From the NCBI GenBank assembly GCA_029962745.1, contig CM057153.1:38102307-38166306 (forward strand): a DNA stretch of 64,000 bases, written 5' to 3'. Source of the DNA: Echinometra lucunter. Lineage: Eukaryota; Echinodermata; Echinoidea; Camarodonta; Echinometridae. The notes beneath the pieces are model-generated. The model made no database searches and had not been told where the DNA came from. It worked only from the letters and a program-made list of their open reading frames with translations. This document shows, piece by piece, positions 87-40,970 of this stretch. Positions within the stretch are counted from its first letter, which is position 1; the number at the start of each line of letters is the position of its first letter. Position numbers and translations under genes: made by a program.

Positions 87-314
87 ACAGAACAAGCAAC
101 ATAAAACTCAAGAGCAGCACACGAGCTAATGACGGAATCTTGGAGGTTTTAAATCCAAATACATCGAACGAGTGGCTACCAGTTTGCGATGAGGGTTGGA
201 ATTCAACATTGGCAGAGATTAGCTGTGCGCAGCTAGGATTTCCTGGAGTATACCAATTTGCAAGTGAGGTGGATGAGCAATACAACAAAACGACATGTGC
301 AAAAATTGAATGCG
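87..314 (+). CDS. Copy A exon: SRCR-like module
   Basis: The acceptor is TTGTAG at 81-86. The exon encodes 75 residues with the first part of an SRCR pattern: an ILEVLN strand, W-LPVCDEGW, then ISCAQLGFPG, and a CAKIEC segment near the end. The usual C-terminal SRCR cysteines are not in this exon, so it is either a shortened SRCR domain or its rest lies on an exon I did not find. Two donors are possible, GTAAAT at 315 or GTAAGT at 321; both leave phase 1. Two NxT glycosylation sites (NST, NKT) are visible. Copy B carries the same exon at 33,720-33,493. Confidence 0.75.
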
Positions 315-12000: not shown

Positions 12001-15000
12001 AAGCCGTCTGTTTGCTTTCTTGCCTTGTTAAATCACAATTCCATCATGTTCATACTATTCAGTCACTATAGGGTTTTGTGAACATCCTGGAGACGTTGCC
12101 CACGGCTGGTGGTCATCAAACTACACCTATCCTGGCTCCAGACTCACATTAACATGTGATACTGATTACGCCATCAACGGGAGCAAAACGATCGAGTGCA
12201 AACCACGTGACGCTGATCAGAAGATTGACTGGGACAATGAGATTCCACATTGCCAACCCCTGACAAGTACATTGCAACCAACAGAAGGTATGTACATACA
12301 TCTAACCTGATACGTAAACGTCCACATTCATCATGATTACGATCCACTATTACCCCTTCATTCACCACAGCTCAAAATCTCAAACTTAACCCAAGATCAA
12401 CTAGTTTCATATGACTTCAATACACTCGAATGACCTGCATTTGGAACGGGTATAAGGGACAAGGTTGTTAAAATCCCAACAAAATTATTCGACGCATAAA
12501 TGTCATTTTGACAAATGAATAGACATATCAATTTGGGATTGATCAGGAAGCTAAAATCTTACATAACGACACCCATCCCTGATTTTATCTCATACATGCA
12601 GAAAGGAGACTTATTTCACTTCCATTTATTGTACTATCAAGCGATTCGAATACTTTTGAATGTATATATCCTCAAGTGATGTGAATATGGATTGCTTCTC
12701 AGTAATCACAGAGTGCAAGTGTGTAAGTAGGTAGTGATTCTGTGATGCAATTATCGTAGTTGATGCCTAAATGAGGAATTCAGTGAATACCAACTAATCT
12801 TGTAATTATAACATAATTTTACCAACTGTTTAATTTCTGTGAAGCTGCTTTCCATATGTTCTATGTTCATGATCTTGTCTACACTTAACTATGAGCACAT
12901 TTATGAGGCTATGCGCTTTATGCATGCCCGTTATTGAATAGGCTTTACTGATTGCAAAGCAATGCACAATAAATAGTTACGTGAATGCTTGTCATGCCAT
13001 GATGAATGGTAAATCAAGAAGTAATCATAATCTAAAATATTCTAGCAAAGGTAAACACTAAACGATTCCAGAATAAAAAAAATTCCCAGCGATATGGATA
13101 TATGATCCATTCCGATCGAACGTGCCTTTTATAAAGCAATATCATAAGCTCAGAGGAATTTAATGTTTCCTTCTGAAATATATTAAAAGACCAACATTTG
13201 ATTCCATCAGATTTTGTCTTTCAGAGAAACTGATATTTTTTAATCTGAAATCTGAATCTAAAATTTGGCAGATCTATCAGAATCACATCGACCGATAGGT
13301 AATTGACTTTTTAAAATCCAGCATAATCGTGTCTTCAGATATTGATTCACCTGATCCACAAGCTATGCTTTTAAAGGTTTCCTCCACAATACAACGAGCA
13401 TTTATTTATTCACTTATCATTCATTTGTACTAAATTATGATATATCGTTGATTTCATAATGATTTTGATATGCGAAAGTCAATGTTAACATTTTATTTGC
13501 TGTTATTGTAGAAATAAATGAAATGAAATATTTTACCATCTTTGTTACTTTGTTGTTTTGTTCCATTTTACTAGAGTACATCACTGGCTATTGTTTCTTG
13601 ACGATGTGCAATCGAATGCCATTGAAAGTGCAATAACATTCATTCAGTCCTTAGTTCTTATAGATATTAAATATCATGTTACATCAAAGACTTGGGAAAA
13701 CATCAGTTGCATGCAAACCCAAATCCCTGCACGCTCTCTCTCACACACGCACAAACCAATGAGTAGGCCTATACACATTTTACGCTCTTGCAACCATAAG
13801 CACTGCTATGATTTTTTGTTGTTGATAGGAATAGGGGCTGCAGCTCTCTCGTCCCAGACACGCCTGTTATGTAAGCCGATAACTGGCACAAAGCAGTAGA
13901 TAACAGTGTGTGATTACAATTACAACAGGGAATTTTTATACCAACATTTCAATGCATGTTCTTCGAAAGCGTTGATTTTTAACTGTTACAGTAGGCCGAT
14001 GGATCTTTATCCTTAAAACAAAGCATTTTTTTTTTCCTCAATCTAGAATTAATTCAAATATAGATATAGTAAACAGGATATGTAGAATATGCAGTGTGAT
14101 TGGTGAGATTTGCATCACGTGATGTGCAGAAATTTTGTTATAGTGCATGATCGTAAAACAAAACTGCACTCGGGATAATTCAGTATAATACGTCGTAAAC
14201 ATAATCCAGTATACAAGTAGTGCATGATATAGACAATGCACTATTTACATAATAGCTAAAATACCTTTTTGGTACCACATGATGAAATGGATAGGAAATC
14301 TCCACAAAAAAAAAAAAAAAAAAATAAGGGGATGTGATCCTACATGTATCTTCTACATGTCTATGCGAAACTGACTTGTCATGAAATAATCAAGAGAAGC
14401 TGATACGAATTTAACATTTTTTATTTACTTGTTATTTTACATAGGTTCAAAAAGAAAGTACCTGGTTCCCCTTTTCTTCTAACTATTTTTCCTTCATTTT
14501 TGGCCATTATTTTTAGGCTTGTACACCATCACTCCTCCTCTCCATATATGATATATCTAAACCGATATGAACAACACAAACAATTCTTTATAAGTGCACT
14601 GTCTACGCAGGGAAATGTAACTGGTCTACGTGAACATAATTTAGAGTAAGCAGAGAAATGTAACTTTCCCTGGAGTAAGAGTCAGTGGAGAAGGAACTAT
14701 TTATTAAAGCATTCACAAATTACTTATAGATTTTCTTTTGCTTCGTACACAGCAGCCAGTGGCGTCCGGCATCATATCCAAATGGTTCATTTACCAGTAA
14801 GTGATCTAACCCACACCTTTCTTTAGTTGAACAGAATCAACACATTTTAAATGCACTGGAAAGTTAAACAGGGGATATACAGTGCGTCCCCCCTAAAAAC
14901 TCCCATCTAGCCGACAAAGTCTCACCCTATCTCACCTCCCCAACAACACGTACCACCACCCAATCCTGACTCCCATGAACACATCACTGAGTCTACCAGG

Positions 15001-18000
15001 GAAAGGTACAATGCTACAATAATGAATGGAATTCCCGTTCACTCATGCATAAAATTTTGATTTAATAAACCATAAAATTCACTCAGTAAACCTAAACTGA
15101 TTGCAACTGATCATGAATTCATCATATCACCCTCAATTCTGTAACCTCCAAAGGACTCATTTCTCACAAATTGAAAGGTGCAATTCCTGCGCAACCTAAT
15201 TTTTATACCCTTTACAAAAGTGAGCAGTGCTCACCCAAGCATGAATTATTTTTGGCCTTTTTGGTCTCATATGAAAGTTGAGTCCATGAGCTATCCGTAC
15301 ATATAAACCTTTTCTTCCAGAATCATGTGTTTTTTATTTTGCAGCCATTTCAAAAGTGTAAAGTTTTTTGGGGGACGCACTGTATATCAGTTGAAAGTTA
15401 CTTATATCAAATATGTGATAGGTAGCTGCACTTGTTTTTCTTTTTATGTAGTCATTGTTGCTGTTACACACTCTTTGCAAAAGAGAGGCCAGAATGCGAA
15501 ATGAGTCCCTACCATGTCTACTGACCCTACCTGCTTCCGCTTTATTATGATTTACCCGATTTAGACTCATCCTAAACATGCTAAAGAAAAGCAGATTGCA
15601 CAAATTTTCATTTTGCTAAACATTGCTATCACAACTAGTCTTTCCTGTCTCTTCGGAATAAAGATAATCTTTCACAATTGATTTATCATTTTTCACTTTA
15701 TGTTGCCGTGTCAACTATGATTAATTTAGACAATGTTTGAAATGTTCACGGGGGTTCACGGCCTCTGTATTAATGTATCAAGAAAATAAAATTGATTGTT
15801 CTTAAGTTATAGGGGGCTGGAATCTACAAGCTCAGCTTTTAGGCAGTCCCCTCCATTACCAACCTTTTTTCAGGCTCTTGTACACGGTGAACTATTTATA
15901 TTTACGAATCCACTGATAAGTTTCATTGTTTTACCTTGTACGATGGTTACTTTGTATTCTGTTTATGTTGGAAATGGAAAATAAACGAAACGAAATGAAA
16001 TTAAATGAAATGTAGTTGGGGTTTCTTTCCAATGGTTAATTACTTGCCCTTGTCTTCTTACCTCATATTACAGTTAATTTCATTCCTGGCGTCGTCTGTG
16101 CTGTGGTAATCACGCTAATTGTTCTACTACTCTTATGTTACCTTTGGAAGAGGTGGGCAAACAAAAGTGTTCATTATTAGAATACTTATTATTTAATTTG
16201 TATTGATAAAGACTGGCAATAATGTTGCTGGGTGATCTACAGATTCGAAAACTCTTTATATAAATACTGAACAATTCATAAATATTAAATATCATTTCAG
16301 CATTATGTTTAGGCCTATTTATTTTGTTTGTGTTAACTTATTCACTACATTTTCTCTAAAATTGAGATAACTCTGTTCAGAAATACATGGTAGGACATGC
16401 TGCTGAAGCACATATCGAAGACATACATTGCTAAGTAATACCACATTGACGATTATAACAGGTTCACAGTCGATATATTTGTATTCATAAACTTATCTCA
16501 CTTTCTTTAAAAAGGAGGTAACCATTTGAATATTTTCAAGATAGATTCAAATGATGAACGTAACAGTTTAGCTCGTGTAAATCTGTTGATGGATTGCTTG
16601 CAGTCTGTGCTAATTATCTGTAGACGTTGGATGGTATTCTACTATTTCAATTAAACCCGACTTTCGCTATAAACATGGGTGTCGATCCAAGGGGGGGGGG
16701 GGATGGCGTGTACAATCATTCCCCCTAATAATTCACCATGAAAAGCATGAAAAATTTCATAGCCTCCTATAATCCTAAAAATATAAAGAAAAAAAAAAGA
16801 GAATAAAGAGAAAAAATAAACATTTTTTAAAAAATGAAAGGTCAAGGAAAAGGTTTTCAGCGTTCGCTCGCTTCGCTCGCATTTTAGTGTATCCCAACCA
16901 ATGAGGTTATAACACTGTCTTGATGAAAGCAAATCGGTTTGCATCTCGTCTTTCTATCAAATAGTATGCTACTACTGTTCTACTCATAGTCAATATCTTT
17001 TGTTATTTGAACCAATGCCAGTTAATATTTTATCAGGGTTTATTATGAAATGATACTGGTTTGCATCTCGTATTTCTATCCATTGTTATATATGTACTAG
17101 TTTGATATTACTTCAAGGAGTCGAACGGCAAGAAGACCCATAACAGAAGAATTTTCATGAAATAATGGCCTGTGCTGTGACCGGTAGCCCATTCCTATCT
17201 TACCAAATATATGAGAAAGGAGGAAGCTGATAAAATGTACGTTATCAAAATCATAAAATTGGCGTAACAGAAGAACCTAGCTGTTCTCAGTATTAAAAGA
17301 TAGCCCTTTCTCGCTCGCTCGCTCCGCTCACTAATAGAAACAAGATCAGGAGGCAAGCGCTCTTATACCCTCAGCAAAGTGTCCGAATATTGTGATATTT
17401 TTACAGCGAGATGTAAAGCTTCTCTCGAATACAGGGAAATGGTACATCATAAAACCCATCTAATTCATTCGATCTCCATCTCCAAATTTTATTGTCCGAG
17501 AAAGGACATTTTTTTTTGCCCAATTCATCGTGGGCCCGGCAGCCACTGAGCAGCGCCAGATCGACGTTGCTCTATCCTTTTCAATTCTTGAACGCCAAAG
17601 AAGGTAGCAGCAACTCCCATCTTTTAACGTCTAATGGTATGACGCGGCCGGGGTTCGAACCCGCGACCTCCCGATTGTGAGGCGGACGCTCTACCTACTG
17701 AGGCAACACATCGGTTTGGTGGAAAGTCTACGTTTTACTAGAAAGAAACGGGGTTTTTGTCGGTAGCTCGCTTCGCTTGCTCATAGAAACAAAATGGTTT
17801 TAGATGGCAAGCGATGCACCAAAAAGCATCATATTTGGCAATCAGGTGATCAAAACTATTTAGATATCTTTGAGGCTATCAAAGAATGTAAATTTTTCCC
17901 TTGCTCGCTGCGCTCACTCGAGGGGGCCCTTTGGCTCAGTGGTAGAGCAGTGGTCTCGTAACCGGGAGTACCCGGGTTCGAAACCAAGTAAATGCGCTAA

Positions 18001-20095
18001 TACCCTTTGGTAAGGTATTAATCCTCATAACCAAGTCCTTCGGAAAGGACTTAAAGCCGTCAGTCCCCTGGTTGCGTATTAACAAGCATGCACATGCTTT
18101 CTTAGCAGTCAGGTAAAATAACCAACCATTTATATATATATACTTTATGTAGATAATTTATATACCTATAGTGGATTTTGATGACAAAATAACACTTCTA
18201 ACTAAAAGAGTGTGTTTTCCGCTGTCTCCCCTCCCTCGCTTGTAATATTTGAAATAGGGTGGTTTAGAAAAGTAAACAATAATTGGACCAGCGAGGAGTG
18301 CTGAATTAGTCAGACATTTTAAATTGCTTAATTGAGTGTACTTTGAGGACAAATAAAATTTCTTATATAGCTAGAAAGTGAAATTTTCGGCTCGCTCGCT
18401 CGCTTCGCTCGCTCCCTAAATAAAAAACGGGATAGTTCATACTCCAAGTAAAGGTCAAAATCCCCCAAAGTTCTCATTCAAGTGATGAGGATGCCCCTCT
18501 GCGATATTGTTTGAAAACAATTTTGTATGCTTAACTGGAGGAACGGTATATTAGACTAATAATGCAGAGATATGGGCAGCAAAAACAAGTCCTATCCCCC
18601 CCTCTTATTTAGTCCATCCTTCACGTTTGATCCTCCACACCCTTTCCCCCGCTCGGTCACTTTGCTCAGCGGTCGAGGATATTTGGCATCAGTCATCCCC
18701 CAACCGCGAACACAAATCGACACCCATGGCCATTAAGTCATGTTAAACAAAAGGAAAGCTCATAGCTCGGTCCAACTTCCTTCGTTAAAACTTTAGACCA
18801 GGGACGGGTTTAGTTTTAGCAGAATACAGGCCATAAAGTCAAAAGGAAAGCCGTTTAGCAAGCAAGTAAGCAAGCAAAATGATGGTTTGGCTGAAAAAAC
18901 ACAGTGATGATAGTACAAAGATGGAAATTATTTTCTCCTCATCTTTTACAGAAAGCTGCATGGATCATTCACTAACAAGCAGTTAACTGTGAGAAACGGA
19001 CCTACTACAAGTGCTGATGACTCGTCAGTGGCTAGTGTAACACCTATCAAGTCCACTAGTCAAGAAGCAGAAATCGAGTCACTTATTTCGGTAACTTCTA
19101 CTCAGATTTGCTCGGAGTCATCCAATCGTAATGGACCGTGCGAAAAAACGGTCAAAGAGAACCCCCAGCAAGGAGAAAGTCCTTCATCAGTACAATCTGA
19201 GATAAAATCACAAACAGATGTAAACATAGTTTATGCTACAGTTAATAAAGACAGTCGAGATCATCAAAATTCATCAACCCCAGAAGTGGATAAACGGGAG
19301 ACGAGAGCAGATGCTATTCTTGAAGGCTGTGATGAGAGGGCGGAAATCCCAGTCCAGTACCCTCAACAAACCTTCTGTGGTAAATCTCACACCATGAGGA
19401 ACCGACCACTGCCTCAGTGCCCGAAGGATGAAGCCATCAAACCTCCGGTAGCTCCCAGGAAAGCCCAAACCTTAACGCGAAAGGATCGAGCTAGAGCTAG
19501 CGACTTTTCGATTGACACCACTAAAGAGAATCTTGCACCATCTACTGCTCCTCGAGACAAGGTTCATGTAAACAAGAAGGCACCAGGTGGATCCACGCCG
19601 TATGTGAAGGCTAGAGGCAAGCGGGCTACGAATACGAAGAATAAAGTCGATCATCAGGTTGAAGGGGTTTCTTGTGATGACAACGCAGTCTCTGCTTCTC
19701 AAAGGTTTTCGGATGTGTCATCATCTGCATATAGCACAATCGATCATTCTCCAGAAAAAGGGAATATGTCGTCTCTGGACAAAACTGAAAATTCACTGTC
19801 AAGCAACAATAATTCAAATTCTGCTTTGCAGGTCATCAAAGCCGTGCCTCCAGAACAAGTGTACTTCGATATTGATGACGCAAATGGCGACGAGGTGTCT
19901 AAGGGCATGACCGGAAGTGATTTGGGATTCAATGGAATATTCGGCGATAACTTAAATCCGTCTACTACAGCAGTCCAGCATGCGAGCAACCTGTACCATA
20001 CACTGGAGCCGACAGACGCAGAATATGACGACATTAGAGACACTGAAGCTAAATTTGACGGTAATGGATCTTATGATCTTTTGAATTTTGAATAG
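87..20095 (+). CDS. Receptor copy A: SRCR-like/WSC/CCP/TM protein with tyrosine-motif tail (5' end outside window)
   Basis: This is a gene-level entry. The best-supported exons are 87-314 (SRCR-like), 8315-8587 (WSC), 12072-12287 (CCP/sushi), 16074-16152 (transmembrane) and 18952-20095 (cytoplasmic tail, stop at 20093). Every one has AG/GT borders, and each extracellular module exon starts after one base of a codon and ends with one base of the next (phase 1-1), so they join in frame; the TM exon ends in phase 2, which the tail exon completes to Arg. The architecture is a type I membrane receptor: extracellular modules, one helix, then a tail of about 380 residues. By comparison with copy B, a CUB exon should lie left of position 1, and no signal peptide is in view. 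Possible extra exons are 699-888, 7215-7376 and 7869-7929. A Ty3 element, a hAT-like element and a MITE sit in its introns. Ligand and function are unknown; a pattern-recognition or adhesion role is inference from the modules. Confidence 0.75.
699..888 (+). CDS. Possible exon of copy A, unrecognised
   Basis: It has a plausible acceptor (CTTCCAAG), a donor (ACAG|GTATGT) and an open frame that follows the SRCR-like exon in phase 1, encoding about 63 residues with two cysteines (DICILP and DFCAYR). It ends in phase 2, which does not match the phase-1 start of the WSC exon, and copy B has no matching sequence. It may be a chance open frame. Confidence 0.25.
1065..1197 (+). repeat. 5' LTR
   Basis: Begins TGTAGCATCG and ends in ATTATA(T). 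It matches the 3' LTR over its full length with a C/T difference near the start (1070) and a T/C difference near 1161. It is very short for a Ty3 LTR. No clear CA terminal dinucleotide is present. Confidence 0.9.
1198..1207 (+). promoter_or_regulatory. Primer-binding site of the Ty3 element
   Basis: TGGCGACGAG lies directly after the 5' LTR. It is complementary to the CTCGTCG-CCA 3' end expected for a tRNA-Ser(GCU)-type primer; the tRNA end is recalled from general knowledge of animal tRNA-Ser, not from this window. Confidence 0.65.
1218..1980 (+). pseudogene. gag of the Ty3 element, broken
   Basis: The frame opens with ATG at 1218 (MNLPQFERFS) and carries a capsid-like region. A run of 21 T at 1393-1413 interrupts it; the capsid reading resumes near 1430 (ESAKKALEKHF). 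A zinc knuckle of the C-x2-C type with a PHRHKPCPAKG core lies at about 1861-1941. In-frame stops TGA (1816) and TAG (1942) break the frame around the knuckle. The knuckle form is typical of the mag/SURL group. Confidence 0.75.
2131..5232 (+). pseudogene. pol of the Ty3 element: protease, RT, RNase H, integrase, broken
   Basis: The protease motif VIDTGAS lies near 2185. From 2615 to 4849 a single frame of about 744 residues holds reverse transcriptase (TLDLNSGYHQIEL; catalytic NISDDLLVFG, where many Ty3 elements have YxDD), RNase H (TDHKPL and an N-terminal VDAGPLGLGAVL), the integrase zinc finger (HEGHQ then CLSCQ) and the DDE core (VDFADL, CTDNG, NGEVERF). A frame change separates the protease from RT (2334-2615), and another near 4770 moves the integrase C-terminal region into a different frame ending at 5232. 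That C-terminal part is basic, with an Asp run and an Arg/Pro-rich end. Length and order are normal for the family; the breaks make it non-functional as it stands. Confidence 0.85.
5233..6306. other. Non-coding tail of the Ty3 element
   Basis: About 1.07 kb between pol and the 3' LTR with no open frame of note. It holds a two-copy tandem repeat of about 60 bp (5806-5935, unit containing AGTTGTTTTATCTTATGA), an A28 run at 6069-6096, and the polypurine tract AAGGTGAGGAGGAA at 6293-6306 directly before the 3' LTR. Confidence 0.7.
6307..6439 (+). repeat. 3' LTR
   Basis: Begins TGTAGTATCG; two base differences from the 5' LTR over 133 bp. It is preceded by a purine tract and followed by unique AACGGGGGCAGG. 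Confidence 0.9.
7215..7376 (+). CDS. Possible exon of copy A, faintly MRH/CIMR-like
   Basis: The acceptor is TTATAG (7209-7214) and the donor is ATT|GTAAGT at 7377. The exon encodes 53 complete codons with phase 1-1 borders like the other modules. Visible pattern: a cysteine (KTCKLD), VDLRRPL, then YFITPCSHC. A Cys...DL-pL...Y-x-x-x-PC layout recalls the first half of mannose-6-phosphate-receptor-homology domains, but the similarity is weak. Copy B lacks the surrounding ~600 bp altogether. Confidence 0.35.
7869..7929 (+). CDS. Possible 61-bp exon of copy A
   Basis: A strong acceptor (TTTCTGCTTCAG) and donor (GTAAGT) enclose 61 bases open only in phase 0, giving 20 codons with two cysteines (QCIVDL to LNCF). 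Copy B has the same signals and an open frame at 31,894-31,834. It ends in phase 1, which fits the WSC exon, but no exon found upstream ends in phase 0. It may be optional or not used. Confidence 0.35.
8315..8587 (+). CDS. Copy A exon: WSC domain
   Basis: The acceptor is TTCTTCCTCAG and the donor is GATG|GTATGA; the exon is 273 bp, phase 1-1. It encodes a full WSC module: FGYRGCF at the start, then CLQTCYAMSFQLAAIRW, DGCYCLN, RCILECDS, GTQCPP and a final FHYD. Spacing of the eight cysteines fits WSC domains, which are carbohydrate-linked modules in yeast stress sensors and polycystin-type proteins. Copy B has the same module one codon shorter. Confidence 0.85.
8701..11213. mobile_element. Composite hAT-like insert in copy A
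   Basis: Comparison with copy B shows an extra block of about 2.5 kb in the WSC-CCP intron of A. It opens with CAGTGGCGTAGATAGG, a terminus like that of the hAT-type elements elsewhere in the window, and closes near CATAGATACGCG. Inside are two related ~200-bp units (about 9205-9390 and 10970-11200), each starting with a GCGAGGG-type motif and containing TCTAAAGCATTTACC-like sequence and a GTGCCGCCC end. Target duplication could not be resolved, so the outer ends are approximate. No coding region is seen. Confidence 0.55.
12072..12287 (+). CDS. Copy A exon: CCP/sushi domain
   Basis: The acceptor is CACTATAG and the donor is AGAAG|GTATGT; 216 bp, phase 1-1. It encodes a complement-control-protein module with four cysteines in order (FCEHPGDVAHG, LTLTCDTDY, TIECKP, EIPHC) and the WD..IPHC closing signature. 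One NYT and one NGS glycosylation site are visible. Such modules mediate protein binding on cell surfaces. Directly upstream of the membrane exon in both copies. Confidence 0.85.
12288..14879. other. CCP-TM intron of copy A, no gene
   Basis: AT-rich sequence that largely matches copy B in reverse. Candidate splice signals around 14755-14796 occur but the donor is missing in copy B. Nothing else recognisable. Confidence 0.5.
14880..15382. mobile_element. Mariner-like MITE in copy A
   Basis: Terminal inverted repeats CAGTGCGTCCCCC at both ends, 503 bp, flanked by TA on each side. The same place in copy B (near 26,861, minus strand) reads as an uninterrupted GGGATATATCAG, so the element inserted into a TA in copy A, or left B precisely. 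No transposase frame is present. Confidence 0.85.
16074..16152 (+). CDS. Copy A exon: transmembrane helix
   Basis: The acceptor is CATATTACAG and the donor is AAGAG|GTGGGC; 79 bp, phase 1 in and phase 2 out. It encodes one hydrophobic helix (core VVCAVVITLIVLLLLCYL) followed by WKR, the basic stop-transfer end on the cytoplasmic side. This sets the topology: modules outside, tail inside. Copy B has a much longer version of this exon (148 bp). Confidence 0.85.
17640..17712 (-). repeat. tRNA-like SINE head
   Basis: On the minus strand an A box (CCTCAGTAGGTAGAGC) and a B box (GGGTTCGAACCCC) are clear and CTCACAA stands in the anticodon region (CAC, Val-like). The anticodon and acceptor stems pair poorly, so it is a tRNA-derived repeat and not a working tRNA gene. 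It lies inside the 2-kb hAT-like element. Confidence 0.7.
17925..18141 (+). repeat. tRNA-Thr-derived SINE
   Basis: The head has GGCTCAGTGGTAGAGC and GGGTTCGAAACC with a TCTCGTAA anticodon loop (CGT, Thr-like). The body contains CCTTCGGAAAGGACTTAAAG and CAGTCCCCTGGTTGC, of a type shared by many marine-invertebrate SINEs, and the 3' end is a short TA repeat. Nested in the hAT-like element, so it is younger than that insertion or moved with it. Confidence 0.75.
18952..20095 (+). CDS. Copy A exon: cytoplasmic tail with ITAM/ITIM-like motifs
   Basis: The acceptor is CATCTTTTACAG; the leading A completes the Arg codon begun in the TM exon (YLWK-R-KLHGSF). About 380 residues, Ser/Thr-rich and with no fold that I recognise. 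Counting from the GTG codon at 18989, tyrosine motifs are IVYATV (Y82), VQYPQQ (Y124, YxxQ), SAYSTI (Y248), QVYFDI (Y292), LYHTL (Y336), EYDDI (Y346) and SYDLL (Y362). YHTL and YDDI are six residues apart, the spacing of an ITAM; Y82 and Y248 fit the ITIM consensus. RPLPQCP (139-145) and PVAPRK (153-158) fit class I and class II SH3 ligands. Together they suggest a Src/Syk-type signalling tail; this is inference from motifs. Confidence 0.85.
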
Positions 20096-23011
20096 ATGAA
20101 CAACAATCAACATAATCAGAAAATTTGTTTTTCTCACTCACATGAAAGACAAAGGATAATTATAGATAGCGACCAATAACAAAACTTAAAATTGCCCCTC
20201 CATTTATGCGTTCGGAAAGAAATGATTATCAAGTTCAGGTAATTTCTTTGACTCATCTCTATGCGATCGCCTCCTAAAAACTAATGAAGTTATCTGAGAG
20301 ACCAGTTAAATTCTGAAAAGTCGCTTCATATGTTTCTTTCGTTACGGCCACACTGGTAAAAAACTTCTAAAAAGTGTGATGCTTGGAATTCCGATTCTTG
20401 TGTTCTTCTCATAAACCTCAAAACACATACGCACACAACTTCGCATTGCATAAAAAATAATTGATATTGTAGGAAATTCACTTCTGCAGCATGACTGCTA
20501 TACATATTCTAAATTTAATGATAATCTACTTTGCAATGTAAAGGAATGAATTTTTCAAATGCATAAACAACATTCACCCTATGAAAACTTTTTGAAACTA
20601 ATGAAATTACACATTAAGGTAGGGCACATATAGCTAAGAACATTATATCTGATAAGAACATAATTGTATATGATACTATTATCACGCAGTGTTTGTACAT
20701 CTACATCATTATATTTTTTGCATGTTACTTCAATATCTTTAGGATTGATGTGAATTGGGTGTTATCTATCCGGGGTAGCTACATAAGTACTAATACTGAT
20801 CTATCGGCTAGATCTGCAATATACATATGCTTATTCATTCTTTTTTGGGGTGTGTGTGTTTTATTAAGGAATCAAAACATAATACAATCTTCACAGACAG
20901 ATATAAACTGATAGGTTACAAAAAATTACGGCATATTACAATATTCACAAATAATTGGGATTATCAGTGCGCTTATTCACTCTTGTTTTCCATCTTGCAG
21001 GATGTCTGTGAATTTTGTGTTAATTTCTTTCTTTTCTTTTTCCTTTCTGTGGAATATTTTCCAATGGAAATCCAATTTCATTTCCAACTTTTCTACCTTA
21101 CGTAATCAATGATGAAAATAATTAGTTTACTTTCTTTTATCCTTTTCTTTCATTTCCTTCTTTCTTACTTTCTATTCTCCTTTCTGTAAAGGGGCTTTTC
21201 CCGTTTTGACAGTGCCAAAGGTACAAAATTTGAATATTTATATGGAAGTATATGCAATAATTTCTTATGAACTTTGATACTTTACGGACGTCGCAATGTA
21301 GACATTAGGTATATGTGGTGCTATGAAGTACTTTTGTATTCTTATTTACGGTGCATACTAGTAATAATCAATTATAACATTTCTTATATTCCATTTTGAA
21401 ATATTTTATTCATTCTTATACAAAAACAAGAAATAAAAAAAAACAACTTCTGATACTATCTGAACGTTCTAATGAATATATTTGATATTAACATTTTTAT
21501 TATCATTATACATTATCTTCAAGAGGTATTTTCATATTCTCGTGTGTAGTGGACGAAATATTATGCAATTTAGCAATATTTTTTATACACTTTTTAAAAA
21601 AAAAATCGTGCATTTTCCGTGTATATGGGTCAAAGCTATTTCTGATAAACTACAATGAAACAACACTGTTATCAGACTACACCGCAATTTATTTTGATAC
21701 TGTCCATTATATCTTGAATGAGTCTCATTTTATCACTTGTTTATGTCTAAAATATATATATTTAATTTTAGCTTTCATTGTACTTTGTTTTACTTTCGAC
21801 GTGCAATAATGAGTAAGCTAATTATTTCTATAGATAATGAAAATGAATGCTATACTCTCATATCCTTAACACTGTCGGATAGTAATGATGTGACAGATTA
21901 TAAGTTTCAAATTTTTATTTCTGTATTTACTCATATCATTGTGCACTGGCTCCGAAACATCACATGCCTTTCACGCTGGTGGCAGATAAGATCACTAGTG
22001 AAATACATTTTGAATTATATCACGGACCTAACGCCTCTTACTTCTTGACTTTGTTATGAGTACTCTACGTTTGTGAGTGAGCATAGTGATGATGAAAGAT
22101 GGTAATGATTGATTATAAAGTTAGTAAATAATACAAAATCATAGACCATAATAATAACAAGAGAGAACGCTCAATGACATCAAAAAATAATGGACCATAT
22201 TTACAATAAAGAGATGAATTCCAAATGACCTATGTATGTTCATGATAGCTATATATAGAACCCAAATAAAAATGATTTTTTTTTTGTGTCTGGCAGCCCT
22301 GAAATAATGTTTTTTATTGATTCTCCCAGGGATGAAAATTTAACTCAAGCCTCATTCGCAACAACACATTTTTAAAAGCTTTCTTGTCTTGTTTTGTTTT
22401 GTTTTGGTTTGGGGGATCAGCTACATTTCTTTAGTCATACTTCTCAACCGACTCCAAACCGATTCCAAACCATGGGTAAAATGGGTTACTACCTTTATTT
22501 ATACCGGAAGATCAGGCCTATATAGTATTGCTCTTGCCTTAAATCTACAAGCTGCAAGGAAGAGATCGTGGAGTTAATAGAATGAGACATTAATTGGAAT
22601 TGCTTGCCGTCGGGGGGGGGGGGGGGGGGGGGCGTATGTCTCACTGAGGTCTGTACATCAGTCGCGTGAACGAAAACGTAGAAAAGGGTTGTTTTTCAGA
22701 ACCAGACGGGGAACCCGGGGATCCCGTTAATGATATAAAACATAGAAAAAATATGGAAAAGGGGTTAATTCAGAGGTATGATGATGCAATCCTTGAATAA
22801 AATCCCTGTTAATGGTACAAAACTCGGAGATGTTAAACACCCTTCCCTAGCTCAGCTTAGGGTATCAAAACCACTCCTAATTTAATCCCGTTCCCACGGG
22901 GTATGTCTAATTGAGGACTGTATATCATCCACCACACGCAAAAAAGGAAAAAGGGTACCGTTATAGCCTTTTTTCAGCACAGGCGGAGAAAGACGGGGAA
23001 CCCGCGTATTC
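20096..23011. other. 3' flank of copy A and spacer of the inverted duplication
   Basis: From 20,096 to about 20,825 the sequence matches, in reverse, 24,362-23,640 beside copy B. After that the match stops and AT-rich unique spacer follows, with a G22-class tract near 22,612-22,632. No gene is seen. Confidence 0.7.
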
Positions 23012-23511
23012 NNNNNNNNNNNNNNNNNNNNNNNNNNNNNNNNNNNNNNNNNNNNNNNNNNNNNNNNNNNNNNNNNNNNNNNNNNNNNNNNNNNNNNNNN
23101 NNNNNNNNNNNNNNNNNNNNNNNNNNNNNNNNNNNNNNNNNNNNNNNNNNNNNNNNNNNNNNNNNNNNNNNNNNNNNNNNNNNNNNNNNNNNNNNNNNNN
23201 NNNNNNNNNNNNNNNNNNNNNNNNNNNNNNNNNNNNNNNNNNNNNNNNNNNNNNNNNNNNNNNNNNNNNNNNNNNNNNNNNNNNNNNNNNNNNNNNNNNN
23301 NNNNNNNNNNNNNNNNNNNNNNNNNNNNNNNNNNNNNNNNNNNNNNNNNNNNNNNNNNNNNNNNNNNNNNNNNNNNNNNNNNNNNNNNNNNNNNNNNNNN
23401 NNNNNNNNNNNNNNNNNNNNNNNNNNNNNNNNNNNNNNNNNNNNNNNNNNNNNNNNNNNNNNNNNNNNNNNNNNNNNNNNNNNNNNNNNNNNNNNNNNNN
23501 NNNNNNNNNNN
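23012..23511. other. Assembly gap of 500 N
   Basis: Exactly 500 N, a conventional placeholder length, so the true distance and even the relative orientation of the two flanks depend on scaffolding. All open frames crossing it are meaningless. Confidence 0.99.
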
Positions 23512-24362
23512 ACAACACTCAATAGTTGCAAACAAAAATCATGAAATAGAGAAAGGCTTATAACTCACAAAGGCATAGCATATTTAGCTATGTTGCAATA
23601 CTTATGGCACGGGAGGGTATATACATGTATGTATATGTTGCAGGTCTAGCCGATAGATCAGTAGTAGTACTTATGTAGCTACCCTTGATATATAACACCC
23701 AATTCATTTCCATCCTAAAGATATTGAAGTAACATGCAAAAAATATAATGCTGTAGATGTACAAACACTGCGTGATAGTAGTATCATATATAACTATGTT
23801 CTTATCAGATATATGTTCTTAGCTATGTGCCCTACCTTAATGTGTAATTTCATTAGTTTCAAAAAGTTTTCATAGGGTGAATGTTGCTTATGCATTTGAA
23901 AAATTCATTCCTTTACATTGCAAAGTAGATTATCATTAGATTTTTTAGAATATGTATGTATTGCAGTCATGCTGCAGAAGTGAATTTCCGACAATATCAG
24001 TTATTTTTATGCAATGAGAAGTTGTGTGCGTATGTGTTTTGAGGTTTATGAGAAGAACACAAGAATCGGAATTCCAAGCATCACACTTTTTAGAAGATTT
24101 TTACCAGTGTGGCCGTAACGAAAGAAACATATGAAGCGACTTTTCAGAATTTAATAGGTCTCTCAGATAACTTCATTAGTTTTTAGGAGGCGATCGCATA
24201 GAGACGAGTTAAAGAAATTACCTTAACTTATCATTTCTTTCCGAACGCATAAATGGAGGGGTAATTTTAAGTTTTTGTTATTGGTCACTATCTTTAATTA
24301 TCCTTTGTCTTTCACGGGAGTGAGAAAACAATTATCTGATCATGTTGATTACTGTTCATCTA

Positions 24363-25482
24363 TTAAAAATCCAAAAGATCATAAGCTCCATTACCGTCAA
24401 ATTTAGCTTCAGTGTCTCTAATGTCGTCATATTCTACGTTTGTTGGCTCCAGTGTATGGTACAGGTTGCTTGCATGTTGGACTGCTGTAGCAGACGGATT
24501 TAAGTCATCGCCGAATATTCCATTGAGTCCCAAATCACATCCTGCCATGCCCTTAGACACCTCGTCGCCATTTGTGTCATCTATATCGAAATACACTTGT
24601 TCTGGAGGCACGACATTGATGACCTGCAAAACAGAATTGGAATTATTGTTGCTTGACAGTGAATTTTTAATTTTGTCCAGAGACGACATATTCCCTTTTT
24701 CGGGAGAATGATCGATTGTGCTATATGCAGATGATGACACATCCGAAAACCATTGAGAAGCAGAGATTGCGTTGTCATCACAAGAAACCCCTTCAACCTG
24801 ATGATCGCCTTTATTCTTCGTATTCGTAGCCCGCTTGCCTCTAGCCTTCACATACGGCGTGGATCCACCCGGTGCCTTCTTGTTTACATGAACCTTGTCT
24901 CGAGGAGCAGTAGATGGTGCAAGATTCTCTTTAGGAGTGCCAATCGAAAAGTCACTATCTCTAGCTCGATCCTTTCGCGTTAAGGTTTGGGCTTTCCTGG
25001 GAGCTACGGGAGGTTTGATGGCTTCATCCTTCGGGCACTGAGGTAGTGGTCGGTTCCTCAGGGTGTGAGACTTACCACAGAAAGTCTGTTGAGGGTACTG
25101 GGCTGGGATTTTCGCCCTCTCATCACATCCTTCAAGAATAGCATCTGCTCTCGTCTCCCGTTTTTCCACTTCTGCGGGTGATGAATTTTGATGATCTTGA
25201 CTGTCTTCATTAACTGTAGCATAAACTATGTTTACATCTGCTTGTGATTTTATCTGAGATTGTACAGATGAAGGACTTTCTCCTTGCTGGGGGTTCTCTT
25301 TGACCGTTTCTTCGCAGGGTCCATTCAGATTAGATGACTCCGAGCAAATCTGAGTAGAAGTTACCGAAACAAGTGGCTCGATTTCTGCTTCTTGACTAGT
25401 GGACTTGATAGGTGTTACACTAGCCACTGACGAGTCATCAGCACTTGTAGTAGGTCCGTTTCTCACAGTTAACTGCTTGTTT
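24363..25482 (-). CDS. Copy B exon: cytoplasmic tail with ITAM/ITIM-like motifs
   Basis: The acceptor is ATGTTTTACAG; the first A completes Arg from the TM exon, then NKQLTVRNGP follows; stop TAA at 24365-24363. All tyrosine motifs of copy A are present: IVYATV, AQYPQQ, SAYSTI, QVYFDI, LYHTL, EYDDI and AYDLL, and the YHTL-x6-YDDI spacing is unchanged although neighbouring residues differ (EPTNVE for EPTDAE). RPLPQCP and PVAPRK are also unchanged. Substitutions between copies fall outside the motif positions, which suggests constraint on the motifs. Confidence 0.88.
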
Positions 25483-28400
25483 CTGTAAAACATGACAATA
25501 AAATAATTTCCATCTTTGTACTATCATGATTGTGTTTTCTCGGCCAAACCATCATTTGCTTGCTTTACTTGCTCGCTACACGGCTTTCCTTTCGACTTTA
25601 TGGCCCGTATTCTGCTTAAACCAAACACGTCCCTGGGTCTAAAGTTTTAACAAAGGAAGTTGGGCCGAGATCTAAGCTTTCCTTTTCTTAAACATGACTT
25701 TATGGCGAAAGTCGGATTTAACTGAAATAGTAGAATACCAACCAATGTCTACAGATAAACACATACTGAAAGCAATCTACAGATAAACCCGAGCTAAAGG
25801 GTTACGTTCATCATTTAATATATCTTGAAAATATCTAAATGGTTACCTGCTTTTTAAAGAAAGTGGGAGTGGTGTATGAATATGAATATCTCGACTGTGA
25901 ACCTGTTATAATCATCAATGTGATATTTAGCAATGTATGTCTTCGATGTATGCCGTATGTACCTCTGAACAGGGCTATTCCAATTTTAGAGAAAAGGTAG
26001 TGAATAATACAAACAAAATGAATATCTGAACTCGTCAGTCAGCATGGTCTGGATGGGCTTGAACATTATGTTGAAGTAACATTTGATATATAAGTTATTC
26101 AGCAAATTCACAAATAATTTCGAAGCTCTATCTCACCCAGCAACACTATTGCCAGTCTTCGTAATGAACATTCTAATAAAGAACACTTTTGTCTGCATAC
26201 CTCTTTCGAAACCAAACTACGCAATCATCTTTCGCCAAGAGGACGACGATGAGGTTGACGATGACGATGAGGACGACGACGGCGAAGAGGACGACGACGA
26301 CGATGAGGACGACGACGAGGGGATGGATATTTTTAGCCTGGTTGTTCGCTGGAATATGAGGTACGAAGACAAGGGCACGTAGTTAATCATTCAATAGACA
26401 TGAAGGACATGGATGTCGAAATTCTTTTTATCAAGGCAAAATATCACCGGTAAAATTCTATTTCATATTATCCGACTTTCTTGATACACCAATTTGCAGA
26501 AGCAATGAACATTTCAAAAATTATCTAAATTAATCATATTTGTACGGCAACATTATACTGAAAACTAATAAATTGAATTGTGAAAGATTATATTTTGTCC
26601 GGAGAGGCAAGAAAGACTAGTTGTGATAACGATGTTAAGCAAAGTGAAAATTTGTACATTCTGCTTTTCTTTAGGATTACCCAGAATCGAGTAGTAAGTC
26701 ATGATAAAATGGGAGTAAATATGGTTATCTGTTAGTGGGGATTCCTTTCGCATTTTGACCTCTCGTTTGCAAATTAATGTGTAAAAGCAGTAATTTCAAC
26801 AACAAAAACCAAGTGCAGCTACGTATCACACATTTGATATAGCTAACTTTCTTCGACTGATATATCCCTAGTTTCCAGTGCCTTTAAAAAATGTTGATTC
26901 TGCTTTAAACTAAAGAAAGGTCTTGGATGAACCACTGGGATATTCGGACACCATTAGCTGCTGTGTATGAAACAAAAGATAATCTATAAGTAATTTGTGG
27001 CTACTATGAAATAAAAAGGACGAGCATGGAGAGGGTATGATGCGGTGGGGTACCAGGGTTTCACTCCCACAGTGGCGTAGCTAGGATTTCCTTTTAGTGA
27101 GGCGGTAGTGAGCATGCGAAGCGTGTGAATCACTTAATGAGAGCGCTCCCTAAGGGGGAGGGTGCAGGGAGGGGAAGCTCCGACGTTTCTTTGAATTGTT
27201 CCTTGTCTGCTCCCGCTCTTTCTTACGTTCTCTTACCTTTTTTCTTTTCTCGCTCCGGCTTTTTTTCCTTCTACTTTTTTCTTTCTTTTTTGTTGGTGTT
27301 TTGGAGGGGGTGACCGCCCCCATCGCCCCCCCCCCCCTTGGCTACGCAAGTGCACTCCCATGGTAAAGGAGTTTTTTGCAGTATTGATGGTTTGCAACTC
27401 TGTAAAAGAACTCTATTTGGGACTACAAACTTAAAGCCCGTGTCTAGTTTTGGTAAATCTAAGAATATTCATTATCAAAGTTTGAATCCATTGTCGATAA
27501 ACAGATAAAACCAAGTGTTATATCATACAACACATTAGTATTGATATTATGCATGTTTTCGGCCTTGCTATGCATGCTATTTGGGAAACTGTGAATGCGT
27601 TACTTAACACTAGAAAGGGAGTCTAGGGAGAAGTAATGAAATTCGCGTGATATCACTAATACAAAATTGAAAATAAACCATGGTTGAAATTTATGTGGGG
27701 GCGTCAGCCCCCCCCCCCCCCGCCCCCTCCAGTACGCCACTGATATCAATCCACCGTATATAAGAACTAAGGACCGAATGAATATTATTCAACTCTCAAT
27801 GGCATTCGATTGCACATAGTCAAGAAAAAATAGTCAATGTTATACTCTAGTAAAACTGAATAAAACAATAACTTACAATAACAATAACAACTTATATAAC
27901 AATAAAACAATAAAAGATGGAAAAAATATAGCTCGATTTTAAGACAAAATCATGCTAAATAAAGAAAAAGCATGTCAATTACCTATCGACGTTGTCCGTG
28001 GTTCAGAGGCATCTGCTAATTTCAGATTGAAAAATATTCATTTCATTGAAAGAAAATATCTGATGGATTAATGTTGATTTTTTAATATATTTCAGATATT
28101 AACTTCCTGTGGGCTTATGATAGGTATATCGCTTTATAAAAGGCATGTTCGATTGGATTCGGAATTGAACTACAATTGATGATATGAAATATTAATAGGC
28201 CTGTTTATCTTAATTTTTTTCTGGCATTGTTTAGTGTTTACTTTTGCTAGAACATTTAAGATTATAATTAGTTCTTGATTTATCATTCATCATGGCATGG
28301 CAAGCATTCAAGTAACTACTTATTGTGCATTGCTCCGCAATCAGTAAAGCGTACATGTATTCACTATAACAGGCATGTAATGCGCATAGCCTCTTAAGTG

Positions 28401-31400
28401 TGCTCATAGTAAAGTGTAGATAAGATCATAGAACATAGCTTCACATAAATTAAGTAGGTGGTAAACAATATTATATTTTAATCACAAGATTAGCTGGTAT
28501 TCATTGAATGCCTCATTTATGCATCAACTACGATAATTTCATCACAAAATCACTACCTACGTACACACTAGCAAACATATTCTGTGATCACATGAGACAC
28601 AATCCATATTCACATCACTTGAGGATATATCATACATTCATAAGCATTCGAATTGCTTTACAGTGCAATATAAATGGAAATCAAATAAGTCTCCTTTCTG
28701 CATGTATGAGATAAAATCAGACATGGGTGTTGTTATGTAAGATTTTAGCTTCCTGAGCAATCCACAAATTGATATGTCTATTACATTTATCAAAATGACA
28801 TTTATGCGTCGAATAATTTTTGTTGAGATTTTAACAACCTTGTCCCTTATACCCGTTCCAAATTCTGGTCATTCGAGTGTATTGAAGTCATATGAAATTA
28901 GTTGATATTAGGTGTAAGTTTGAGATGTTGAACTGTGGTGATTAAAGGGGTAATGATGGATCATAATCATGATGAATGTGGATGTTTACTACATATACAT
29001 GTATCAGGTTAGATGTACATGTACACACCTCCTGTTGGCATGGTTGGTTGCGATGTACTTGTCAGGGATTGGCAATGTGGAATCTCATTGTCCCAGTCAA
29101 TCTTCTGATCAGCATCAAATGGTATGCACTCGATCGTTTTGCTCCCGATGAGGACGTAACCAGGTTCACATGTTAATGTGAGTCTGGCGCCAAGATAGGT
29201 GTGGTAAGTTGATGACCACCAGCCGTGGGCAACGTCTCCAGGGTGTTCACAAAACCCTATAGTGACTGGGAAGTATGGAAATGATGGAATGGTGATTTAG
29301 CAAGGTAAGAACTTGGCTCACTCGATTTACAAATGTCAACAACAAACAATACAGGTTTTCTGCTCTTATAAACTGGTCCTTTTTATCGGCGAATCTACTC
29401 TAGCATTCAGGTTTGGATTGTCAACTTGGGAACTTACAGTCATGATATGACCTCGAAATACAATGTGCAACGCCTTGGACTATGTCCCAAGTAAAAAATC
29501 ATTTTCATGAACAAAATTCATACAACACCAATCATTCCCAGACATCCCACAGATTACCACTGTATAGACTAATAATATTATAGCTGAATAATGTCTATAA
29601 CTATTATCTCTGTGCTTAAAACAGGAATTCCATAAAATCTGCAAGTGCTTGAGTAAGAAACAAGGCGTTGTTAACTAGACAAAAGAAGGGAGTGTATAGG
29701 AAATTCTTTATCAATCAGGTGGAGATATGGGTGTACTTGTAAACACTGGAAATTAAAAATCCGTAATGTGAAATTATGCAAAACCATTACTTATTCTCAA
29801 AACAAACACAGTATGGAAATGATAATACAAAACGTAAACAGACATTTGAAAAAAGCTAGGAGGTATATATTTGCAAACGCCATGTGATTGGTGTTGTATG
29901 AATTTTGTTCAAGAAAATGAATTTTTTACTCCGATACAACTACATTGTAGCCCTGTAGCCCTGTAGCCATGGTATAGTCAGAGCATACTATTTCTTTATG
30001 TTTGTCTTCCATTTCAAAGTTTTAAAAAGTGATCCTAATACTTGACATTTTCATATCATTATTTTTCTACTTCTGAATTCTTGTAAGTAGTTTATATTCC
30101 AAGAATCCACGATGTATCTTTTCTATTCTTAGGATATTATTTTTTATTCTTAGGATAAACTACTTTTAATTTGGGGAATTTCAACTTTCGAGAGTTCAAC
30201 GAGACTCAGTGGTGTTTTGCGCTAATAGTAAATATTTCAGATATTTACCAACAGGGCGTTTTTTCCGTTTTTTTATTCTTTGTTATGATTTTCCCTACAT
30301 ACCTTCTTGGTTAGATCATAGAAATACATCAACAATGCTTGATCTGGGATTCTGACAAAAATATCCTTTCTTTTATCTAACATTTTAACCACAATGTAGA
30401 AGTCCAGTAACATCATACCATTGTAATGAAAGGCCCAGTCTTTCCCTGCCGGTGGGCACTGTGTTCCTTGGATGGAATCACATTCTAGGATGCACACTGT
30501 ATTATCCGAAGTCTCAATGTGAATTTCGGACTGAGAGACGTTAAGACAGTAGCATCCATCCCATCTAATCGCCGCTAGCTGAAACGACATCTCAGAACAC
30601 GTATGCAGGCATTCACCAACTTCAGTTGTATTGGACCGAAACGTGTCGGAATTTGTAGGAATCGGGAAGCAACCACGATAGCCAAATGCTGAGGGGAAAA
30701 TGCTATAAATTATCTCTCAGAACACACCCCATAAGTATCAAAATAAGTGAAGTGCATCCCAGTATTGACTCAGGTTACATATACTACTCAGCTCTCATGA
30801 CCATAGGCACACTTAAGTAAAGAAATAAGCATGTTAACAAAAGATCAAGTTTACATAATGCTTAGACATACTAGAGTGGAAGTTGTGTAAATCAAAGGAG
30901 TTTCAAGAGCTGGAGTCACATCTAACTCATCCCTTTGAAGTGACGTTTGATGCCGCCAGGAAAAAAATGTCAGGCATGTGCTTAACTCGATCTTCCTTGC
31001 AGATACGTAGACAAAAGTTTTTTGCCTAGCTGCAAAACTTACGGGCGATTTTCAAAGGGAAATATGCTTTTGTAATGATAATACTTTTCGCCACCACTCG
31101 TCTGATAATATGAGCAGTACACAGTGCTTACGTTTACAGGAGGCAAGTGAAAGGAAATGGTGCAAAATTTGCTGAAATATGAATCAAAATTTCTCGACTG
31201 GGCATGTGTGGGCACTAATCTGACATATAACATCATAAATAACTGTACTTCAACATATTCACTTTTTATTTTCGTTTGCAGGAAGTAAACGGAAAAGTAT
31301 CAAATTGCGGGTTTCAAGATTGTCCAATTTTACTCTTTTTCACAAATTAAAACTGCTATCATGCGACATACGCATATTTCTGGATACAGATAGGCTTTTG

Positions 31401-39678: not shown

Positions 39679-40970
39679 TCAAGGAAGGCGTACTTTGCAG
39701 CGCTTCAAATCACACGCCCAACGATCAAGGAGCAGGTAATGTCGAAATCTGCGGCGATAGTGCACGTTAGTGGCAGCGTATATGAACGGATTTAGCAAGG
39801 CATTACACCACACGAGTAAATTCGTGATCTCCCAGCAAAGAATCGACGCGCAGTTGTCACCAAAACGGCATACATAACGGTTGTTACTTGGATATAGGCA
39901 GCCAGCAGATCAAGAAACACCCCACTAGGACTGCAAGGACTACAGCGACTTTCCGATGTCTTGCGAATGTCCGTTCTCTAGACTCAGAACTGTAGATCGT
40001 GACACTGTTGATAGGTAGGTAGGTGGTCATTTCGATGGTGTTCACTGCCTTCAGCAACAACATTTACGGCATCGTAAGATCCATGGTTGTCAAAGACTGC
40101 AGAACGACCGTCGTTGGGTGGGCATGATGAGTGGTTCGTTTGTTCCTGGTTTCTCGACACAGATAGGGGCCTTTGGTTGGTCGAAGGACCCGGACCTACA
40201 ACACCTTTTGATCTCCGTTTGATATTGGCATATACAGCTGTATTCAAAACGAGTAGGACTGTGAGCGGAATGAAGAACTCTATTACATTCGCGATTACTG
40301 TTCCACCAAGACTGAATGTGAATTCCATTTCACAATTATTAGCATAGTTCACGTGCTGATGTCCAGTAATGGAACTCCATGCGAACGCAAGGAAGGTGTA
40401 CCAAGTAAAAACGACAGTCCATGTGACACAGAGGATCAATGCCAATCGTTTCTTGGTCTGAAATGTCTGATACTGCACTCACATAATCAATAGACAGTAA
40501 CGGTCCCAACTGATCAACACCATGGTTAAAACAGACACCACGCTCACCGTGTAATCAGCTATCAACCATACCTTGCAAAACACCTCACCATATGACCAGC
40601 GATCTTTGATTAACCATGCCAGGTTAACAGGCCACATGAAGGCTCCTACGATGAAATCAGTGATGGCCAGGTTGAGGATAAAGGTATTAGTCACATTAGC
40701 TTGGATGCATTGACTCTGGTAGTAAGCAACAATCGCCATGACATTACCAACGATGGTGATAGAACTGACGACTGAAACCACCAAGGGAACTATTGCAAGC
40801 CAAGCGGTTGAATAAGGATATTCATAATTGTATTCGTATGAATAATTATAATCAGTTGAATTATTATCATCAACAGAAAAAATTGCTACCAGTTGAATAA
40901 CTACTCGTCGAGCCTTCCATCGCTCACATAACTCAAAAAAGAAGCTCAAGAAGAAATCTAATGGCGACAA
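39679..40970 (-). pseudogene. Aminergic (histamine H3-like) GPCR pseudogene
   Basis: Read on the minus strand, most of a rhodopsin-family receptor is visible. TM1 has IVGNVMAIVAYY; TM2 has NLAITDFIVGAFMWPVNLAW; TM3 has CKVWLIADYT (the Asp typical of amine receptors) and ISWDRY; TM5 ends NIKRRSKG; TM6 has FLICWLP; TM7 has NALLNPFIY (NPxxY). The N-terminus carries NNST and NYS glycosylation sites. Breaks: an in-frame TGA at 40481-40479 in the loop after DRY; a frame change near 40,020 in the third intracellular loop; another near 39,890 between TM6 and TM7. The last part then runs to a TGA at 39681-39679. The overall pattern is closest to histamine H3-like receptors, with muscarinic as the alternative. 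Single-exon, so a retrocopy or intronless family member. Confidence 0.85.

Follow-up and report, generated by a model that had tools for sequence, protein, structure and literature searches.

Two sea urchin SRCR receptor genes with a multi-motif tail, and a related ectodomain on an unrelated tail

What kind of receptor combines, in one tail, tyrosine motifs of the activating and the inhibitory type with proline motifs of the SH3-ligand type, and what does the presence of such a tail in two gene copies tell us? The question is raised by a window of 64,000 nucleotides from the sea urchin Echinometra lucunter (the whole stretch analysed here; C3:38102307-38166306, forward strand, of a 743 Mb assembly), which contains two receptor genes arranged tail to tail, copy 1 on the plus strand and copy 2 on the minus strand. 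Positions are those of the window, and negative positions lie upstream of its start, in the fetched flank. We consider it probable that these are two intact genes for single-pass type I receptors of the SRCR/scavenger type, that their long common tail (tail A) is a docking scaffold for SH2 and SH3 proteins, and that they belong to a small family with at least two unrelated tails.

In each copy, seven exons with AG/GT borders join into a single open frame, of 790 residues in copy 1 and 805 residues in copy 2, with phase 1 junctions between modules and a phase 2 junction into the tail. The exons of copy 1 (+) are a CUB exon (-2096 to -1749, upstream of the window), the first half of an SRCR domain (87..314; Pfam PF15494, E 1.9e-9), its second half (7852..7929; AG/GT borders, phase 1; homologue in copy 2), a WSC exon (8315..8587; PF01822, E 1.1e-4, 22.8 bits; splice sites), a Sushi/CCP exon (12063..12287; PF00084, E 7.8e-9; splice sites), a transmembrane exon, IPGVVCAVVITLIVLLLLCYLWKR (16074..16152; entered in phase 1 and left in phase 2; from a hydropathy scan and splice dinucleotides), and the tail exon (18952..20095; open frame, AG acceptor). 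The same order is found in copy 2 (-): CUB (34715..35053; PF00431, E 6.8e-12), SRCR first half (33493..33720; PF15494, E 6.8e-9) and second half (31834..31911; homologous to the copy 1 exon), WSC (30419..30688; PF01822, E 2.2e-5, 25 bits), Sushi/CCP (29029..29265; PF00084, E 2e-9; splice sites), transmembrane (26201..26348; hydropathy scan and splice dinucleotides) and an open tail exon (24363..25482). Both WSC matches are under the Pfam curated cut-off of 27.8 bits. The SRCR domain has six cysteines and is split across two exons in both copies, and the PF15494 domain in frame with a transmembrane exon makes both genes SRCR-superfamily receptors. The CUB/SRCR/WSC/CCP receptor proposed in the preliminary description, which was made from the letters of the window, is thereby borne out by domain matches and in-frame splicing. 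In both copies, the transmembrane exon, followed by KR, links the Sushi exon to the tail without a break in the frame, so that the tails should be cytoplasmic.

All motifs listed in that description (YHTL-x6-YDDI, IVYATV, SAYSTI, YPQQ, YFDI, YDLL, RPLPQCP and PVAPRK) are present at identical aligned positions in both tails. Tail A contains 8 tyrosines, six of them in Yxx[ILV], and the eighth tyrosine, which had been missed, lies in TPYVKA. In both tails, YHTL-x6-YDDI, C-terminal to the transmembrane exon, matches the pattern of the immunoreceptor tyrosine-based activation motif (ITAM), YxxL/I-x6-8-YxxL/I, whereas IVYATV and SAYSTI match the pattern of the inhibitory motif (ITIM), [SIVL]xYxx[ILV]; copy 2 has a third strict ITIM match, VEYDDI, created by A349V. 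NPxY is absent from both tails. When the copy 1 tail is shuffled 20,000 times, six or more Yxx[ILV] sites (P=0.0001; shuffle mean 1.2), an ITAM-spaced pair (P=0.0025) and at least two strict ITIMs (P=0.037, that is, 3.7% of shuffles) are rarely obtained, all of these values being flattering because the motifs were chosen after the sequence had been read. Tail A has no Pfam match and is predicted to be disordered, with a mean predicted local distance difference test score (pLDDT) of 39.8 in a model based on no more than 3 aligned sequences; the blocks with the highest pLDDT, 53 and 57, are at the SH3-ligand stretch. A PDB profile search with tail A gave a lone weak match, 1ks6 (E 0.03), which we take to be due to chance.

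The motif content suggests a mechanism in which ligand clustering would lead a Src-family kinase to phosphorylate several of the YxxI/L/V tyrosines of tail A; these would then bind SH2 proteins (Syk-like, SHP-like and adaptors), and the two proline motifs would bind SH3 proteins constitutively. Expression of such receptors would be expected in immune cells. Whether the role of tail A is activating, inhibitory or dual cannot be read from the motifs.

Conservation of the motifs in both copies had been offered in their support. The two tails differ at 35 of the 372 aligned residues (about 36 had been counted before), plus length differences at both ends, and none of the changes affects the 45 residues of the motif cores; 45 random residues would miss all 35 changes with P=0.009, and the 8 tyrosines alone with P=0.45. 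In the substitution pattern along the tail, proposed earlier as a check, the cores have 0 nonsynonymous and 5 synonymous changes vs 35 and 16 in the rest of the tail (Fisher P=0.005), a comparison that is partly circular because the cores were picked by a reader who had both copies in view. When all 8 tyrosines are taken unselected, there are 0 changes from Y to Y+3 vs 3.0 expected (P=0.037), but the wider windows are unremarkable (Y-2 to Y+3, 3 vs 4.5 expected, P=0.31; Y-3 to Y+4, 5 vs 6.0, P=0.42).

The argument from the two copies loses most of its force once the surrounding DNA is considered. Divergence is 5.1% in the tail exon and 5.7% in its 3' flank (722 aligned bases), vs 13% in the intron just upstream of the tail exon (223 bases; 3' vs 5' flank, Fisher P=0.0006) and 16.1% in the receptor core (6,291 aligned bases). 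Synonymous divergence (dS) is 0.085 in the tail vs 0.183 in the ectodomain, CUB included (P=0.0045), and in the tail it does not significantly exceed the 0.052 of the flanking genes (P=0.09). Binned at 2.5 kb, divergence is 14.5-21.0% over the receptor core (26.0-38.5 kb), 10.8% in the bin of a neighbouring G protein-coupled receptor (GPCR) gene (38.5-41.0 kb), 1.8-5.1% over 41.0-63.5 kb, and 9.7% and 12.7% in the outermost two bins, with 6.4% in the tail bin. The tails have a younger common ancestor than the ectodomains, or were homogenised. With a tail exon and 3' flank that are much younger than the remainder of the gene, or homogenised, tail conservation in both copies is weak evidence; paralogues or haplotypes, the copies do not provide two independent evolutionary observations of the tail. 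At the other end of the protein, the ratio of nonsynonymous to synonymous divergence between the copies is 1.12 in the CUB exon vs 0.28 in an exon of the neighbouring NWD1-like gene; the respective changes, 35.3 nonsynonymous and 9.7 synonymous vs 19 and 20, differ significantly (P=0.007), and CUB and tail (35 and 21) do not (P=0.13).

There is a real possibility that the two copies are two haplotypes of one locus, scaffolded head-on over the assembly gap that separates them (23012..23511, 500 N), in which case their conservation would be that of the same gene seen twice. The inverted homology, in which -29904 to 20827 pairs with 66805 to 23628, goes beyond the receptor and takes in the GPCR and NWD1-like genes; the four outer alignments, pooled, show 4.2% substitutions; and the neighbouring contigs U2/U1 and U1/A have end overlaps of about 6-7 kb with 1.9-3.5% substitutions, that is, overlaps at two of the four gaps seen, so that unmerged haplotypes do exist on this scaffold. 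Against one locus stand the termination of the inverted homology inside both contigs, the opposite relative orientation of a second type of NWD-like gene and the divergence of the receptor core given above. Moreover, a third distinct ectodomain is present on another contig, C2112, which implies at least two loci if the assembly represents one diploid animal.

C2112 (25,000 bases) contains all five exons of the CUB-SRCR-WSC-Sushi ectodomain, in order, spliced in frame to a different transmembrane exon (8592-8716) and a different tail exon (tail B, 8082-8408), in an open frame of 538 residues. Tail B is short, has no Pfam match and is dissimilar to tail A (best BLASTP E 2.2). It contains a YxxM motif, YEDM, which fits the PI3-kinase p85 consensus and through which tail B would dock PI3-kinase. 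In its own genome, tail A finds only copies 1 and 2 at E<=0.001 (5/5 candidates scored), and the ectodomain finds at least 102 matches (107 of 621 candidates scored). Tail B finds three matches at E<=10 (4/4 candidates scored), namely C2112, C1919 (57%) and C20 (63%); YEDM and FGYxLAR are retained in all three, and the C1919 and C20 loci also have Sushi-related and transmembrane exons with matching borders. The final ~20 residues of the C2112 tail are unlike those of C1919 and C20. The C-termini of the latter two, YLKL-x7-YAEA (C1919) and YQML-x7-YAEV (C20), come near ITAM spacing, but their last position is not L/I.

The ectodomain of copy 1 is identical to that of C2112 at 320/379 residues (dS 0.139) and to that of copy 2 at 299/375 (dS 0.184), and copy 2 and C2112 share 299/378 (dS 0.256). 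Counted as codon differences, copy 1 is nearer to C2112 (100/1137) than to copy 2 (131/1125; P=0.026); at synonymous sites alone, the two distances are not significantly different (P=0.26). The histories of ectodomain and tail therefore differ, the ectodomain of copy 1 being no closer to copy 2 than to C2112, which is the pattern predicted if one family of ectodomains is joined by recombination to two tails. Vertebrate paired receptors (of the KIR, SIRP and PILR type) likewise place similar ectodomains on different signalling tails, and copy 1 and C2112, with related ectodomains and unrelated tails, resemble them, as far as one full tail B locus allows the analogy to be drawn; unlike in those receptors, tail A mixes motif types, and tail B has YxxM instead of depending on an ITAM adaptor engaged through a charged membrane residue. 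Tentatively, one may envisage an echinoderm paired-receptor system in which a rapidly diverging ectodomain family is exchanged by recombination between a long ITAM/ITIM/SH3 tail and a short YxxM tail, the core being kept as old, 16% divergent versions in arms that differ by ~4%, as at balanced recognition loci, and the tail being homogenised.

Evidence on tail A from outside the species comes from Strongylocentrotus purpuratus XP_011660829.1 (E 4.2e-45, 40% identity over 85%), the only match at E<=0.001 among 2,584 candidates; a tail profile adds no protein at E<=10 (8,000 candidates richest in common words scored). These protein searches reach relatives with short exact words in common and 0.55-1.75x the query length only. 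No paper on S. purpuratus LOC105436703 was found in the open-licence PMC literature. The relative retains RPLPxCP, PPVxxRK, PYVKA, KKAPGGSTPYVKARGK and, under all three gap settings, YxDI, and YATV is aligned and kept under two of the three. The block KKAPGGSTPYVKARGK (19574-19621, +, and 24834-24881, -), absent from the motifs first listed, comprises 16 residues that are the same in both tails and in S. purpuratus, the longest block identical across all three sequences; by this comparison, it is the most constrained segment of tail A. The best-conserved 20-residue stretches are the KKAPGGSTPYVKARGK region (17/20) and the two SH3 stretches (13/20 and 14/20). Identity to S. purpuratus in the motif cores is 20/36 vs 125/296 elsewhere at one gap cost (P=0.15), and 24/35 vs 126/294 (P=0.006) or 24/32 vs 135/287 (P=0.003) at others. 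Free loss of the tyrosines in related species had been named as the finding that would speak against the motifs. The result is divided: of the five tyrosines that can be aligned, three are kept (one under two of the three gap settings) and two are lost, and the ITAM-spaced pair is missing from a gene model that may be truncated.

A number of observations weigh against a phosphotyrosine scaffold exchanged within a receptor family. The S. purpuratus relative is a predicted protein of 360 amino acids without an ectodomain, and with the full-length query no relative was found over the tail region at E<=0.001 among 6,044 candidates. Two of its positions have changed from tyrosine to His and Cys (HPQQ for YPQQ, SACSI for SAYSTI), and it has no tyrosine at the positions of YHTL-x6-YDDI or YDLL, where the model is possibly truncated. 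The ITIM is not conserved across species, the relative having NEYATV, in which position -2 is lost, and SACSI, in which the tyrosine is lost. In the copy 1 tail itself, YxxQ (P=0.32) and the class I and class II SH3 motifs (both P=0.14) are not enriched over shuffles. As for tail B, the full ectodomain is present at just one of its three loci, C2112, an isolated 25-kb contig in which the join could therefore be a misassembly; among the 107 of 621 candidates scored, neither C1919 nor the vicinity of C20:7.636 Mb shows a CUB, SRCR or WSC match, and the Sushi exons of both loci seem degenerate, with the 5' half missing from each and one stop in the C20 match.

Some of these points would also suit a tail in which RPLPxCP, PPVxxRK and KKAPGGSTPYVKARGK are the constrained elements of an SH3 and PYVKA scaffold and in which the ITAM-spaced pair and the ITIM matches are accidents of one lineage; this we regard as somewhat unlikely. 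It accounts for the ranking of the conserved stretches, headed by KKAPGGSTPYVKARGK and the two SH3 stretches, and for the S. purpuratus sequence, with HPQQ, SACSI and no counterparts of the C-terminal three tyrosines. Freely drifting tyrosines, however, do not readily explain the excess of Yxx[ILV] over shuffles or the retention of YATV and YxDI in S. purpuratus, where, in addition, the deviating C-terminus of XP_011660829.1 may be due to truncation or to a model or sequencing error, conceivably a frameshift that conceals YHTL-x6-YDDI.

An endocytic scavenger receptor, in which the YxxI/L/V sites would serve uptake and their likeness to ITAM and ITIM would be incidental, is unlikely. YxxPhi is a sorting motif of the AP-2 type, all YxxI/L/V sites of tail A fit it too, the ectodomain is scavenger-like, and the tail is otherwise predicted to be disordered. 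Such signals, however, usually lie nearer to the membrane than the first YxxI/L/V tyrosine of tail A, which is 88-95 residues from the membrane-side KR; six sites are presumably more than uptake requires, and this reading offers no explanation for the PYVKA block or the two SH3 ligands. Finally, a reversed topology or a secreted protein, with tails that are not cytoplasmic, is highly improbable: a by-eye search of the open frames 5' of the CUB exon identified no signal-peptide exon, and the membrane segment of copy 2 is largely a triplet-repeat product, but the module order in both copies, with cysteine-rich modules N-terminal and the transmembrane exon and KR after them, is that of a type I receptor, and the objection raised on this score in the preliminary description is unlikely to hold.

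We thus retain, as the probable reading, intact SRCR/scavenger type I receptors with an SH2/SH3-docking tail in a family with more than one tail. Several features of the genes and their surroundings stand beside it. The hydrophobic core of the copy 2 transmembrane segment is largely encoded by an 18-bp/triplet array (26242-26318, -; Tandem Repeats Finder), of GAC type on the plus strand and read in a Val/Leu/Ile frame in copy 2, and copy 1 has an ordinary transmembrane exon in its place; a microsatellite may have rebuilt the membrane span of copy 2. The intron between the SRCR exons is 7.5 kb long in copy 1 and about 1.6 kb in copy 2. In copy 1, it holds retroelement frames (1423-5229, +), with reverse transcriptase, RNase H and integrase in 2468-4846 (Pfam), probably of a Ty3/Gypsy-like element, judging by the domain order. 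Next to the receptor is a rhodopsin-family GPCR gene (Pfam 7tm_1; 39682-40991, -; about -7.4 to -5.6 kb in the inverted arm), situated between it and a gene for an NWD1/TEP1-like STAND NTPase with WD40 repeats (51500-63300, +; its inverted copy lies between about -27 and -14 kb). The second NWD-like type differs by about 31% in the long exon and is found at about -43 to -31 kb and 78-116 kb, the two loci differing from each other by 8% in that exon, and the NWD-like genes form a local cluster. The gaps seen on the scaffold, at -99669, -58626, 23012 and 124006, each comprise exactly 500 N (4/4).

Receptors that share ectodomains in this manner are best known from vertebrate lymphocytes and natural killer cells. 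If the paired-receptor arrangement is real, the same logic also arose beyond the Ig and lectin families, on an echinoderm scavenger-receptor ectodomain, and coelomocytes would offer a tractable test of whether activation and inhibition are integrated by mixed ITAM/ITIM tails. The island of divergence across the receptor core would make a recognition polymorphism directly testable by resequencing.

Neither tail A nor the family with swapped tails was found described in the open-licence PMC literature, which was surveyed in part, but their components are familiar. Group B SRCR domains, the type found in CD5 and CD6, are encoded by one exon and have eight cysteines. The SRCR domains of copies 1 and 2 depart from this type, with two exons and six cysteines, and have CUB, WSC and Sushi modules added; compared by description, CD5 and CD6 share with them an SRCR ectodomain on a multi-tyrosine tail. 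CD5 has a pseudo-ITAM, YSQP-x8-YPAL, and a pseudo-ITIM in one tail and is described as lowering T cell receptor signalling (PMC5983667); CD6, with nine tyrosines, is described as a signalosome or hub (PMC6305463). Motif mixing as such is thus already known, and so are invertebrate receptors with ITIM, hemITAM or ITAM, so that the earlier suggestion of an unusual invertebrate immunoreceptor goes too far. Draper/Megf10, single-pass receptors of phagocytes, have an ITAM, additional phosphotyrosines and a Syk-family reader, and for Draper, an SHP-2-type eraser acting via an ITIM isoform is reported (PMC8092387), the combination of an ITAM with an ITIM isoform in Drosophila being covered in a second source as well (PMC9008705). 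Draper differs in its EMI/NIM ectodomain and NPxY tail; copies 1 and 2, which have no such Pfam match and no NPxY, are not of the Draper/Megf10 type, which is marked by an EMI/NIM/EGF ectodomain and NPxY. Botryllus FcoR combines a Sushi domain with ITIM, hemITAM or core Yxx[ILV] in a long tail, and splicing swaps the motif at its loci (PMC12065747); unlike copies 1 and 2, it has an Ig-superfamily ectodomain and belongs to an allorecognition locus, and SRCR, WSC or CUB are not named in the accessible part of that source. In amphioxus, inhibition is abolished by the joint mutation of three tyrosine sites, two of which are DDYATV and HDYSEV (PMC8211107). In sea urchins, the class of SRCR proteins with WSC, CUB and Sushi modules is itself known, these three being among the commonest partner domains, and the word 'tyrosine' occurs nowhere in the main text of that paper, so that tail tyrosines lie outside its analysis (PMC10855680). 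By analogy, the nearest functional counterparts of copies 1 and 2 would be CD5/CD6 or an engulfment receptor of the Draper type.

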